From Hydrogenobacter thermophilus TK-6 (lineage in GTDB: Bacteria > Aquificota > Aquificia > Aquificales > Aquificaceae), in contig NC_013799.1 of NCBI RefSeq assembly GCF_000010785.1, positions 62,001 to 126,000 of the forward strand: DNA of 64,000 nucleotides, read 5' to 3'. The notes beneath the pieces are model-generated. The model saw only the letters and a program-made list of their open reading frames with translations. It did no database searches and was not told where the DNA came from. Below, one piece after another: positions 56,406 to 59,436 of this stretch (position 1 is the stretch's first letter; each line of letters starts with the position of its first letter). The position numbers and the translations under genes are program-made.

Positions 56406-56437
56406 GTAAATTATACTCTGATTTATAATTTTAGGTT
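56406..56437. promoter_or_regulatory. 32-bp bidirectional promoter, mrcA / ispE
   Basis: Plus strand TATAAT (56424-56429) is 8 nt before the ispE ATG; minus strand TATAAT (56415-56410) is 4 nt before the mrcA ATG. No SD on either side. Confidence 0.5.
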
Positions 56438-57250
56438 ATGCGTGTTTTGTCTCCAGCTAAGGTAAACCTCGGTCTGTGGCTTTTAGGAAGGAGAGCTGAT
56501 GGTTATCACGAAATATTCACCATATACCAAGCTGTATCACTTTTTGACGAGATTTTCATAAAGGAGGGTCCGCTAAAGGTAGAAACCAGCAGCTTAATAC
56601 CACAGGAAAAGAACTTAGTATACAAAGCCCTCAGGCTTATGGAGAAATACTTGGGAAGAGATATAGATTTTAGCATATACATTAAAAAGAACATTCCTGA
56701 AGGTGCGGGTCTTGGTGGTGGTTCTTCCAACTGTGCTACTGTGCTAAAGGTGGTAAACCAGCTACTGGGTGAACCTTTAAGTGTTGAGGACCTGGAAAAC
56801 ATAGCAAAAGAAGTATCCTCTGATGCTGTCTTCTTCCTTTATGGGGGTACAGCGGTAGGCAGAGGTAGGGGTGATGTGGTAGAACCTATTAAACACCTTG
56901 ACTTAAAAATTACATTGGTTTATCCCAATGTAGTGGCCTCTACACGCAGAGTCTATAGTGCGGTAAGGGATGCATCATTGACAGATAAAATTGAAGATGA
57001 TAAAATAATAAGCTGTCTCTTAGAAGGTAAGTTTGAGGTGCTGGAGAATACCCTGGGGCAGGTGGCTATGGAGCTGTTTCCGGAGATAAAGGAAGCTTAC
57101 AGGTTTTTAGAGTATTTGGGCTACAGACCTGTGGTGAGCGGTAGCGGGTCATGCGTATTTTATATAGGTGAAGCGTCTGAGCAAGTAAAGAAGGGTGCTG
57201 CTCTTAGAGGATGGCGCTTATATGAGGTCAAAAGCTATAATGGGGTGTAG
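56438..57250 (+). CDS. ispE: 4-diphosphocytidyl-2-C-methyl-D-erythritol kinase
   Basis: IspE, 270 aa, is a GHMP kinase of the MEP pathway. SPAKVNLGLWLLGRRADGYHEI opens, IPEGAGLGGGSSNCATVL is the ATP loop, SSDAVFFLYGGTAVGRGRG carries the catalytic Asp region, and VSGSGSCVFYI the C-terminal Gly-rich motif. The last three codons plus one base form the 5' end of the following tRNA-Gln (10-nt overlap). A leaderless-type start follows TATAAT. Confidence 0.95.
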   Translation: MRVLSPAKVNLGLWLLGRRADGYHEIFTIYQAVSLFDEIFIKEGPLKVETSSLIPQEKNLVYKALRLMEKYLGRDIDFSIYIKKNIPEGAGLGGGSSNCATVLKVVNQLLGEPLSVEDLENIAKEVSSDAVFFLYGGTAVGRGRGDVVEPIKHLDLKITLVYPNVVASTRRVYSAVRDASLTDKIEDDKIISCLLEGKFEVLENTLGQVAMELFPEIKEAYRFLEYLGYRPVVSGSGSCVFYIGEASEQVKKGAALRGWRLYEVKSYNGV

Positions 57251-57313
57251 CTCAACTGGCAGAGCACCGGACTTTGGATCCGGGGGTTCCTGGTTCGAGT
57301 CCAGGCACCCCAG
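57241..57313 (+). tRNA. tRNA-Gln (anticodon TTG)
   Basis: 73 nt. Acceptor TGGGGTG pairs with CACCCCA, discriminator G. D arm around GCTC...GAGC, anticodon stem CCGGA/TCCGG with loop CTTTGGA (anticodon TTG), T arm CCTGG-TTCGAGT-CCAGG. CCA is not encoded. The first 10 nt are inside ispE, so the two are on one transcript and 5' processing would cut the ispE message at its stop codon. Confidence 0.95.
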
Positions 57314-57337
57314 TTTTACATCAAATGAGGTGATGCA

Positions 57338-58267
57338 ATGATAATAAAGCTCCTTACAGGTAACAGCAATCCATCTTTGGCTAAAGAAGTTTCTGATTAT
57401 CTTGGCATACCCATATCTGATATGATAGTTTCTCGCTTTAGCGACGGTGAGATAAGAGTTCAGATAAACGAATCTATGAGAGGTGAGGATGTTTTTATCA
57501 TCCAATCCCTGTGCCCACCTGTGAATGAACATATCATGGAGCTACTTCTGATACTTGATGCCCTAAAGAGAGCTTCCGCAGGAAGGATAACCGCGGTTAT
57601 CCCATATTACGCTTATGCTAGGCAGGATAGAAAAGATAGACCGCGCGTACCTATAAGTGCAAGACTCCTTGCAGACCTCATAACTGTTGCTGGTGCTCAG
57701 AGGCTTGTAGTGGTTGACCTTCACTCCCCACAAATACAGGGATTTTTTAACATACCCGTAGACAATCTCTACGCCCTGAATGTACTTTACGACTACCTCA
57801 AGGATAAGGTGGATGAAAATACGGTTGTGGTTTCACCGGATGCTGGAGGTGTGGAAAGGGCACGAAGGCTTGCCAACAAACTCGGATGCGGTATAGCCAT
57901 CATATACAAAAGAAGACCGGAACCTAATGTGGCGGAAGTACTTGATATCATAGGGGATGTAAATGGCAAGAAAGCCATCATAGTGGATGACATGATAGAT
58001 ACCGCAGGAACTATAGTATCTGCAACCAACCTGCTCATGTCAAAGGGTGCATCTGGAGTTTCCGTGGTTGCAACCCATGCCGTGCTTTCCGGTCCAGCCA
58101 TAGAGAGAATAAACACATCACCTCTTACCCAAGTGGTGGTTACCAATACCATTCCAACCGAGGGCAAATCTTGTGATAAGCTAAAGGTGGTTTCTGTAGC
58201 ACCTCTAATTGCCGAGTCCATAAAGAGAATACACGAAGGCGAGTCGGTAAGCTCGCTTTTTGTATAA
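57338..58267 (+). CDS. prs: ribose-phosphate pyrophosphokinase
   Basis: Prs, 309 aa, makes PRPP from ribose 5-phosphate and ATP. SRFSDGEIRVQINESMRGEDVFIIQS, PYYAYARQDRKDRPRVPISARL (ATP flexible loop), VVVDLHSPQIQGFF, SPDAGGVERAR and the PRPP loop KAIIVDDMIDTAGT are complete. GAGGTG precedes ATG 57338. It follows the tRNA by 24 bp and is probably co-transcribed with it. Confidence 0.97.
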   Translation: MIIKLLTGNSNPSLAKEVSDYLGIPISDMIVSRFSDGEIRVQINESMRGEDVFIIQSLCPPVNEHIMELLLILDALKRASAGRITAVIPYYAYARQDRKDRPRVPISARLLADLITVAGAQRLVVVDLHSPQIQGFFNIPVDNLYALNVLYDYLKDKVDENTVVVSPDAGGVERARRLANKLGCGIAIIYKRRPEPNVAEVLDIIGDVNGKKAIIVDDMIDTAGTIVSATNLLMSKGASGVSVVATHAVLSGPAIERINTSPLTQVVVTNTIPTEGKSCDKLKVVSVAPLIAESIKRIHEGESVSSLFV

Positions 58268-58285: not shown

Positions 58286-58864
58286 ATGAGAAAAGTATCG
58301 CTCAAACTGATCCCAAGAGAGTTAGGTAAAAAAAGTGAGATTAAAAGAATGAGGAGGGAAGGTTATATACCTGTGGAGGTTTATGGTAAGGATGTGGAGA
58401 ACAGGCACGCTTATGTAAGCTTAAAAGACCTTATGAGCCTACCTCACGGCGAGACCTTCCTCATTGAGGCGGATGTGGACGGAGAGAAGAGAGTGTGTCT
58501 CCTAAAAGACATTCAGGTGGGCTATCTGGGTGATGACCCTGTTCATGTGGACCTTTATGACATCTCTCACACGAAAGAGATAGAGATAGAAGTGCCTCTG
58601 GAGTTTGTTGGTACACCTGCAGGCGTAGGTCTTGGTGGCACCTTTGAAGTTATGATGCACACATTAACGGTAAAGGCATCGGTGGATAGCATACCCGACA
58701 AGATAACTGTTGATGTAAGTGCTATGAATGTTGGTGATGTGCTTCATGTAAGAGATATAACACCACCTTCAGGCTGTGTTATCATGGACTCACCCGAGGA
58801 GGTTATTGCAGTAGTCCTTGAACCTGAAGTGGAGGAAACGCCTACCGAAGAAACTACCACCTGA
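58286..58864 (+). CDS. rplY: 50S ribosomal protein L25 (Ctc form)
   Basis: A 192-aa general-stress-type L25. The N-terminal 5S rRNA-binding domain (about 1-95) has GKKSEIKRMRREGYIPVEVYGKD and LLKDIQVGYLGDDPVHVDLYDI. The C-terminal TL5 beta domain (about 98-185) has EVPLEFVGTPAGVGLGGTFEV and DITPPSGCVIMDSPEEVIAVV, ending in an acidic tail. GGAGG is 6 nt before the ATG. Its TGA overlaps the pth ATG; prs-rplY-pth is a common bacterial order. Confidence 0.95.
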   Translation: MRKVSLKLIPRELGKKSEIKRMRREGYIPVEVYGKDVENRHAYVSLKDLMSLPHGETFLIEADVDGEKRVCLLKDIQVGYLGDDPVHVDLYDISHTKEIEIEVPLEFVGTPAGVGLGGTFEVMMHTLTVKASVDSIPDKITVDVSAMNVGDVLHVRDITPPSGCVIMDSPEEVIAVVLEPEVEETPTEETTT

Positions 58865-59436
58865 TGATAAAACTTCTTGTAGGTCTTGGAAATCCCGGTA
58901 AAAAGTACCAGCATACTCGCCATAATGTGGGTTTTATGGTGATAGACGAGCTGGCAAAGAAACTGAAGCTAAGAGAATACAGAGAGGAATGCCTTTCACA
59001 TCTTTACAGGGCAAGAATAGGCGGAAGGGATGTTCTGCTGGCAAAACCACAAACTTATATGAACAACTCGGGACTTGCAGTGATTAACCTGCTTGAAGAG
59101 TACAGTATCTTGCCTGACGAGATGATAGTTGTATACGATGACTTGGACTTACCTCTGGGGAGGATAAGGCTGAGGTTAGAGGGCAGTAGCGGTGGGCACC
59201 ACGGTATAGAATCCATCATAAGGGAGGTAAAAACCGAAAAGTTCCCCAGGCTTAAGGTAGGTATAGGCAGACCAAAGGACAAAAATCAGGTGGTCAGTTA
59301 TGTTCTATCTCCCTTCAGTGAGGATGAGCAGACTCTACTTTACAGGGTGCTGGAGCGCTCAAGAGAGTGCCTCATAAGATGCGTAGAGTTTTCTCCAGAG
59401 GACGCCATGAACTTCTGCAACTCTCCTATTGTTTAA
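58864..59436 (+). CDS. pth: peptidyl-tRNA hydrolase
   Basis: Pth, 190 aa, releases tRNA from peptidyl-tRNA. LLVGLGNPGKKYQHTRHNVGFMVID with the catalytic His, LLAKPQTYMNNSGLAV with Asn, VVYDDLDLPLGRIRLRLEGSSGGHHGIESI with Asp and the conserved GGHNG-like loop (GGHHG), and RLKVGIGRP are present. TGATG coupling with rplY. Its final 11 bp overlap tkt. Confidence 0.96.
   Translation: MIKLLVGLGNPGKKYQHTRHNVGFMVIDELAKKLKLREYREECLSHLYRARIGGRDVLLAKPQTYMNNSGLAVINLLEEYSILPDEMIVVYDDLDLPLGRIRLRLEGSSGGHHGIESIIREVKTEKFPRLKVGIGRPKDKNQVVSYVLSPFSEDEQTLLYRVLERSRECLIRCVEFSPEDAMNFCNSPIV

Follow-up and report, generated by a model that had tools for sequence, protein, structure and literature searches.

The ispE gene of Hydrogenobacter thermophilus TK-6 stops inside the glutamine tRNA gene that follows it. 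Judged from the genomes of relatives, this overlap is old within the family, and tRNA-Gln, alone or with the next gene prs, most likely has its own sigma-70 promoter, predicted inside ispE. The features concerned (table 1) lie in the window, the whole 64,000-nucleotide stretch of DNA analysed. The window comes from Hydrogenobacter and not from Aquifex, the genus named in an earlier note on this DNA. The source genome (G000) is one contig of 1,743,135 bases. The tRNA is recognized by ARAGORN and Rfam (RF00005, 68.7 bits), and the ispE frame exceeds the thresholds of two IspE equivalogs, NF011205 and TIGR00154. The final ispE codons, TAT AAT GGG GTG TAG, extend into tRNA-Gln, and exactly the last 10 nt of ispE, stop codon included, are shared, as the earlier note had described; a real coding gene and a real tRNA gene use the same bases on the same strand. 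The tRNA has no encoded CCA, and G73 is followed by TTTTAC. Folding of the junction RNA gave nothing useful besides the tRNA itself. All 43 tRNA matches in the genome were typed, tRNA-Leu being the last, and a single one is tRNA-Gln; the second tRNA-Gln that the earlier note had considered as an alternative supply was not found among them. Just 32 nt (56406–56437) lie between ispE and a divergent 736-aa frame that by eye resembles a class A penicillin-binding protein. With so little room, ispE's own promoter must lie in or beside the start of the divergent gene.

Table 1. Features of the ispE–tRNA-Gln–prs cluster, in window coordinates.
Feature	Position	Strand	Basis
ispE coding sequence, 270 aa, with stop codon	56438..57250	+	frame and profile matches
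Predicted -35 element TTGACA, codons Leu181-Thr182 of ispE	56978..56983	+	
Predicted -10 element TAAAAT in ispE, TGA before it, spacer 17 nt	57001..57006	+	
ispE/tRNA-Gln overlap, 10 nt	57241..57250	+	
tRNA-Gln(TTG)	57241..57313	+	ARAGORN, Rfam
ispE stop codon TAG, tRNA positions 8-10	57248..57250	+	
GAGGTG, likely ribosome-binding site of prs	57327..57332	+	by eye
prs, ribose-phosphate diphosphokinase, next gene after tRNA-Gln	57338..58267	+	
bL25 (rplY/ctc-like) gene, same cluster	58286..58864	+	
pth, aminoacyl-tRNA hydrolase, same cluster	58864..59436	+	

The 3′ ends of ispE were compared in 58 genomes with an ispE match, out of 61 searched from the same order. These belong to the family of H. 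thermophilus (f1, 35 of 37 genomes with ispE) and to families f2 (6 of 7) and f3 (17). Conservation of the overlap in relatives, which the earlier note had proposed as a check, is borne out: the 10-nt overlap recurs unchanged in 22 of the 35 f1 genomes, TAG again falling on tRNA nucleotides 8–10. In five more, the whole of genus g9, the ispE frame crosses tRNA-Gln from end to end and closes a few codons beyond it. The remaining eight (genera g4 and g10) have no tRNA after ispE; among them is L025, which we take to be Aquifex aeolicus. A metagenome-assembled genome titled Aquifex aeolicus (L274) has the overlap and differs from the complete genome of L025. The gap between ispE and the tRNA is 0–8 nt in 16 of the 17 f3 genomes, the other (L066, genome G052) having its own 10-nt overlap through TAG at nucleotides 8–10, and 7–17 nt in the six f2 genomes with ispE. 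In several f2 genomes (L082–L088), a second tRNA-like 5′ end (GGGGCGTAGCTCAGGTGG) closely follows tRNA-Gln, and ispE has no internal promoter.

A conserved Trp codon near the end of ispE serves as a ruler. It lies 26 or 23 nt from the tRNA in 21 of the 22 TAG-using f1 genomes (the motif was missed in L026) and 22 nt from it in all five g9 genomes, where the ispE frame is displaced by one base relative to the tRNA. The distances 26 and 23 nt differ by whole codons, so the frame has been kept through length changes, g9 excepted. With the same stop in 22 of 35 family genomes and the frame kept, the overlap is more than chance, and a chance origin was rejected; the shared stop has been kept by descent. 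In the g9 loci (L006, L010, L012, L013 and L014), tRNA-Gln occupies positions 2294–2376 of the gene-oriented locus, and in all five genomes the frame predicts that tRNA-Gln would encode about 24 additional residues at the end of IspE.

The earlier note had also suggested looking for a separate tRNA promoter inside ispE. The promoter scan returned a near-perfect candidate sigma-70 site, TTGACA-N17-TAAAAT (56978–57006), 234 nt before tRNA-Gln. It matches 11 of the 12 hexamer positions, has a spacer within the required 16–18 nt, and is the single match to TTGACA-N16-18-TAWAAT in the window (0.08 expected). Its use is a prediction; transcription would be expected to start near 57012–57014. Of 50 Aquificota genomes with the tRNA downstream, 39 have the site at this same pair of codons; none of the eight without the tRNA does. 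It is found in genera g1, g2, g3, g5, g8, g9 and g11 and in all 17 f3 genomes, often with 11 or 12 matches out of 12; g3 and g8 sites score 10, and one g8 locus (L086) has a slightly better overlapping variant 4 nt away. The 11 genomes with a tRNA downstream but no site at these codons are all five of genus g6 and all six of f2, and there the tRNA must be served otherwise. Alternative sites in g6 (9 of 12) were discounted, as they appear to fall where ispE encodes a conserved run of glycine and serine.

Codon choice points to constraint on the DNA itself. All 39 genomes that keep the site spell Leu181 as TTG and 33 spell Thr182 as ACA, while the codons that separate the two elements vary. Of the 41 Aquificota genes with Leu at this position, 40 use TTG, 6.9 being expected from the Leu codons of the same genes. 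A pattern scan for tRNA-Gln(TTG) with prs behind it, run on named genome contigs, supplied the loci from elsewhere and gave at least 118 stretches; among the matches listed, 93 of 117 tRNA-Gln genes have a recognizable ispE upstream, and the other 24 were left out. Organism names for these loci are record titles. Among the matches listed, GC-rich loci spell Leu181 as TTG in 25 of 27 cases, where 3.9 would be expected, and the others do so in 41 of 44, where 8.8 would be. The 102 ispE genes with TTGAC at that codon carry TAnnnT at the 17-nt spacer in 97 cases, against 13 of 1224 for other distances. Non-Aquificota loci among the matches listed have TTGAC-N18-TAnnnT in 51 of 79 cases, 20 of these in genes with 55% GC or more, and lack the pair of elements in 28. 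Ten or more matches out of 12 occur at the anchor in 51 of the 93 listed loci (44 of the 79 non-Aquificota) and at eight control anchors in the same genes in 4 of 744, counts in which genomes and loci are related and rows non-independent, so that z-scores overstate their independence. Three loci (L207, L225 and L266) keep 11 of 12 at 62–69% GC; Rokubacteria-titled loci among the matches listed mostly lack the site. The constraint at this place exceeds what the protein asks for. Hexamers, spacing, codon bias and loss together with the tRNA agree. Most likely, then, tRNA-Gln(-prs) is served by a promoter of its own, and only transcripts begun upstream of ispE would set tRNA processing against ispE translation.

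That conclusion departs from the model drawn from the earlier note, in which tRNA-Gln comes solely from transcripts begun upstream of ispE and each tRNA costs one stop codon, with the protein-only RNase P, HARP, set against ribosomes. We regard that model as unlikely. In its favour, the geometry forces loss of the stop codon on transcripts begun upstream of ispE, the genome has a single tRNA-Gln, all five g6 genomes have the overlap and lack the internal promoter, and in two further overlapping pairs, pnp-tRNA-Thr and pepA-tRNA-Ala, a conserved promoter close to the tRNA is missing. The obstacle is the internal promoter site of H. thermophilus, constrained in relatives. Maturation of the tRNA 5′ end must remove the ispE stop on transcripts begun upstream of ispE; with the predicted internal promoter, this would not extend to every tRNA-Gln transcript. 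The predicted site, which most likely yields tRNA-Gln(-prs) RNAs without a complete IspE coding sequence, likewise argues against an obligatory competition between tRNA supply and ispE translation.

Could the site instead be a by-product of the protein, as the overlap would then also be, with Leu-Thr and Ile mattering to IspE and the match to TTGACA and TAAAAT incidental? Leu-Thr is frequent at these IspE positions, and one g6 gene (L016) keeps the pair without the motif. That gene spells it CTG ACC, however, so other codons are allowed there; genes with the motif choose TTG there far more often than their own Leu codons would predict, the second element stands at its fixed 17-nt distance in 97 of the 102 ispE genes with TTGAC, and the residues differ in most of the eight genomes without the tRNA. 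We give this explanation little credence. Still less probable, and barely worth retaining, is a tRNA-specific start directly at tRNA-Gln with no leader to process. A perfect TATAAT does occur at 57236–57241, and the lpxK-tRNA-Lys loci described below, where all ten linked cases carry TATAAT, show that close promoters exist in the family. The promoter scan reported none here, though, and most relatives have no TATAAT at that place. As a promoter for the tRNA it was rejected, as its RNA would begin near 57248, inside tRNA-Gln.

The reading that we prefer, and consider probable, is a compact, old junction with two inputs, in which tRNA-Gln–prs comes mainly from the sigma-70 promoter in ispE and the overlap is combined with leader removal by HARP. 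Taking the overlap and its conservation, and the promoter site and its constraint, from the sequences, we infer promoter use, order of events and ribosome rescue as follows. (i) In the family ancestor, ispE would have lost its own stop, and T8-A9-G10 of the in-frame tRNA would have provided a ready-made TAG. (ii) The promoter buried in ispE would be the main source of tRNA-Gln–prs RNA. (iii) HARP would remove the ispE-derived leader of about 228 nt, and prs would be translated from its own ribosome site. (iv) Transcripts begun upstream of ispE would hold both ispE and tRNA-Gln. A ribosome close behind the polymerase could reach the TAG and terminate while the tRNA is still unfinished, so that translation would come first and cutting later. 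(v) Cleavage at the tRNA 5′ end would leave an ispE RNA without a stop, ending two bases into codon 268. (vi) Ribosomes on this stop-less RNA would be freed by tmRNA–SmpB. The H. thermophilus genome has tmRNA, SmpB and HARP. Competition would remain for transcripts from upstream of ispE and need not limit the tRNA supply.

Overlaps also occur outside the order. Among the scan matches listed, 26 of the 93 ispE–tRNA-Gln loci overlap. Thirteen of these are Aquificaceae by title or tree, some of them the same organisms as genomes of the order comparison, and 13 belong to the 79 non-Aquificota loci. Four of the latter, again among the matches listed, end with TAG at nucleotides 8–10 (L217, L246, L265 and L306), five read through the tRNA (L207, L221, L225, L264 and L266; L264 is less sure, with a partial ispE match) and four end elsewhere within it (L210, L251, L279 and L282). 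A quick tree of 151 IspE sequences, a guide only in view of long-branch warnings, implies at least nine changes of overlap state. One locus titled Acidobacteria (L273) has an IspE that groups with Aquificaceae in the tree. Where the gap exceeds 60 nt, about 20 of 33 loci among the matches listed have by eye a spoVG-like frame between ispE and the tRNA; all four frames tested were PF04026.

Given this frame in the large-gap loci, the promoter probably serves an old (spoVG-)tRNA-Gln–prs unit. A wider reading, which we offer tentatively and rate at somewhat below an even chance, is that ispE carries an ancestral sigma-70 promoter at the same Leu-Thr codon pair that drives (spoVG-)tRNA-Gln–prs, the tRNA having been freed for repeated fusion with the ispE end. 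It would span Aquificota, Acidobacteriota, Aminicenantes, several delta-proteobacterial lineages, Campylobacterota-like Desulfurellales and others. If true, few promoters within coding sequence would be as deeply conserved as this one in ispE, and the fused tRNA would have been used in two ways: its nucleotides 8–10 as a stop, or its whole length as a stretch that ispE ran through.

The earlier note had linked the junction to a minimal protein RNase P. The enzyme itself fits: H. thermophilus encodes a HARP over the TIGR03875 cut-off and its genome gave no match to RNase P RNA (RF00010), the combination expected of a HARP-dependent arrangement. HARP scored above the cut-off in 37 of 37 f1, six of seven f2 and none of the 17 f3 genomes; RNase P RNA was found, under stricter filters, in 16 of the 17 f3 genomes and in none of f1 or f2. 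A special link is not upheld. The same overlap occurs in L066 (G052), which has RNase P RNA and no HARP over the cut-off. Coding frames of at least 80 aa running into tRNAs were surveyed in nine genomes, with only family-confirmed frames counted. In H. thermophilus they enter 5 of 43 tRNAs (ispE, lpxK, pnp, pepA and a spoVG-like gene). Other HARP genomes gave 1 of 36 (G009), 3 of 38 (G012), 2 of 42 (G027) and 0 of 36 (G007, where two frames with a 1-nt overlap were left out of the count). Genomes with RNase P RNA gave 1 of 35 (G048, an M16 peptidase), 2 of 36 (G051, an AP endonuclease and an HU-like gene), and 1 of 36 each for G054 and G056 (AP endonucleases). The totals, 11 of 195 and 5 of 143, differ little and refer to tRNAs examined, some low-scoring tRNAs of the eight relatives being outside them. 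Four frames without a Pfam match were left out (one in G009, one in G012, two in G027); one of the left-out frames (L439) meets a likely false tRNA call. The overlap is not tied to protein-only RNase P; the HARP link is unsupported, overlaps occurring in order members with RNase P RNA and in other phyla, where they were counted regardless of RNase P type. The loci at which M16 peptidase, HU-like and AP endonuclease genes enter tRNAs in RNase-P-RNA genomes are L366, L468, L475, L461 and L484; the AP endonuclease runs into tRNA-Arg(CCG) in three such genomes.

Overlaps of coding and tRNA genes, tRNA punctuation and promoters inside genes are already known kinds of arrangement. In mitochondria, tRNAs are embedded in messages whose ends are produced by tRNA excision, and stop codons are affected by the cut. 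The ispE case resembles this in that a coding gene reaches into a neighbouring tRNA, here known from sequence, with excision predicted. It differs in lying on a bacterial chromosome, in having a full TAG inside the tRNA in place of one completed by poly(A), and probably in having a separate tRNA promoter. As with other promoters inside coding genes, a predicted sigma-70 site in the upstream gene would drive the next unit; the ispE site differs in staying at a single pair of codons, with biased codon choice, across many phyla. In Escherichia coli, prs has a 302-nt leader that begins in ispE. There is no tRNA between the two genes in E. coli, and its best site lies 309 nt before prs, at a different place in ispE; it was rejected as a homologous case. 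The gene order ispE–tRNA-Gln–prs is common to H. thermophilus and many scan loci listed. In many of those with a gap over 60 nt, spoVG lies between ispE and the tRNA; in H. thermophilus it is elsewhere, running into tRNA-Arg.

Published work describes a HARP-type protein-only RNase P in Aquificaceae (PMC10941002, PMC12153264) and reports that recombinant H. thermophilus HARP cuts tRNAs without encoded CCA about 10-fold faster (PMC12153264). The tRNA-Gln of this organism is of that faster-cut kind. In the portions of the literature covered by our search, including these two papers, PMC8266387 and the A. aeolicus RNA-seq paper (PMC4227106), neither an ispE–tRNA overlap nor an ispE promoter for tRNA-Gln–prs is described; subscription papers fell mostly outside the search, and novelty is unproven. 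The same sources contain no description of a family-wide shared stop at tRNA nucleotides 8–10, of frames running through a whole tRNA, or of a codon-pair promoter across phyla.

Such junctions matter in three respects. T8-A9-G10 is common in tRNAs and can provide a ready TAG for an upstream gene that has lost its stop; in this way genes for tRNA and protein can become joined and remain so. A promoter apparently held at one codon pair across phyla makes DNA-level constraint within a gene directly readable. Annotation that avoids overlap of coding and tRNA genes will misplace the ends of such genes.

Other coding/tRNA pairs of H. thermophilus were followed in the best 30 loci per protein out of the 61 genomes searched; the pairs were chosen for overlapping in H. 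thermophilus, so the figures measure persistence and not an unbiased rate. Within those loci, all ten linked lpxK-tRNA-Lys(CTT) pairs overlap, by 38 nt with the stop TAA at nucleotides 36–38; all 15 linked pnp-tRNA-Thr(CGT) pairs do, by 10–11 nt through TAG (nucleotides 8–10) or by 44–46 nt; and all five linked pepA-tRNA-Ala(CGC) pairs do, by 10 nt. The ten linked lpxK loci among the best 30 have TATAAT 11 or 14 nt before the tRNA, six of them with a good -35 element, which suggests the same solution as in ispE in a shorter form. No conserved promoter was found near the tRNA in the 15 pnp or the five pepA loci, and the competition proposed in the earlier note may apply at these two pairs. In the H. 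thermophilus genome, the lpxK stop TAA falls in the anticodon loop of tRNA-Lys(CTT) (L036, L101; G000:C1:1336960-1337032), pnp runs 44 nt into tRNA-Thr(CGT) (L040, L131; G000:C1:1071578-1071649, minus strand), and pepA, a leucyl aminopeptidase gene, ends with TAG at nucleotides 8–10 of tRNA-Ala(CGC) (L050, L161; G000:C1:605923-605994). A short SpoVG-family gene (PF04026; L059, G000:C1:281217-281290, minus strand) runs 23 nt into tRNA-Arg(CCG).
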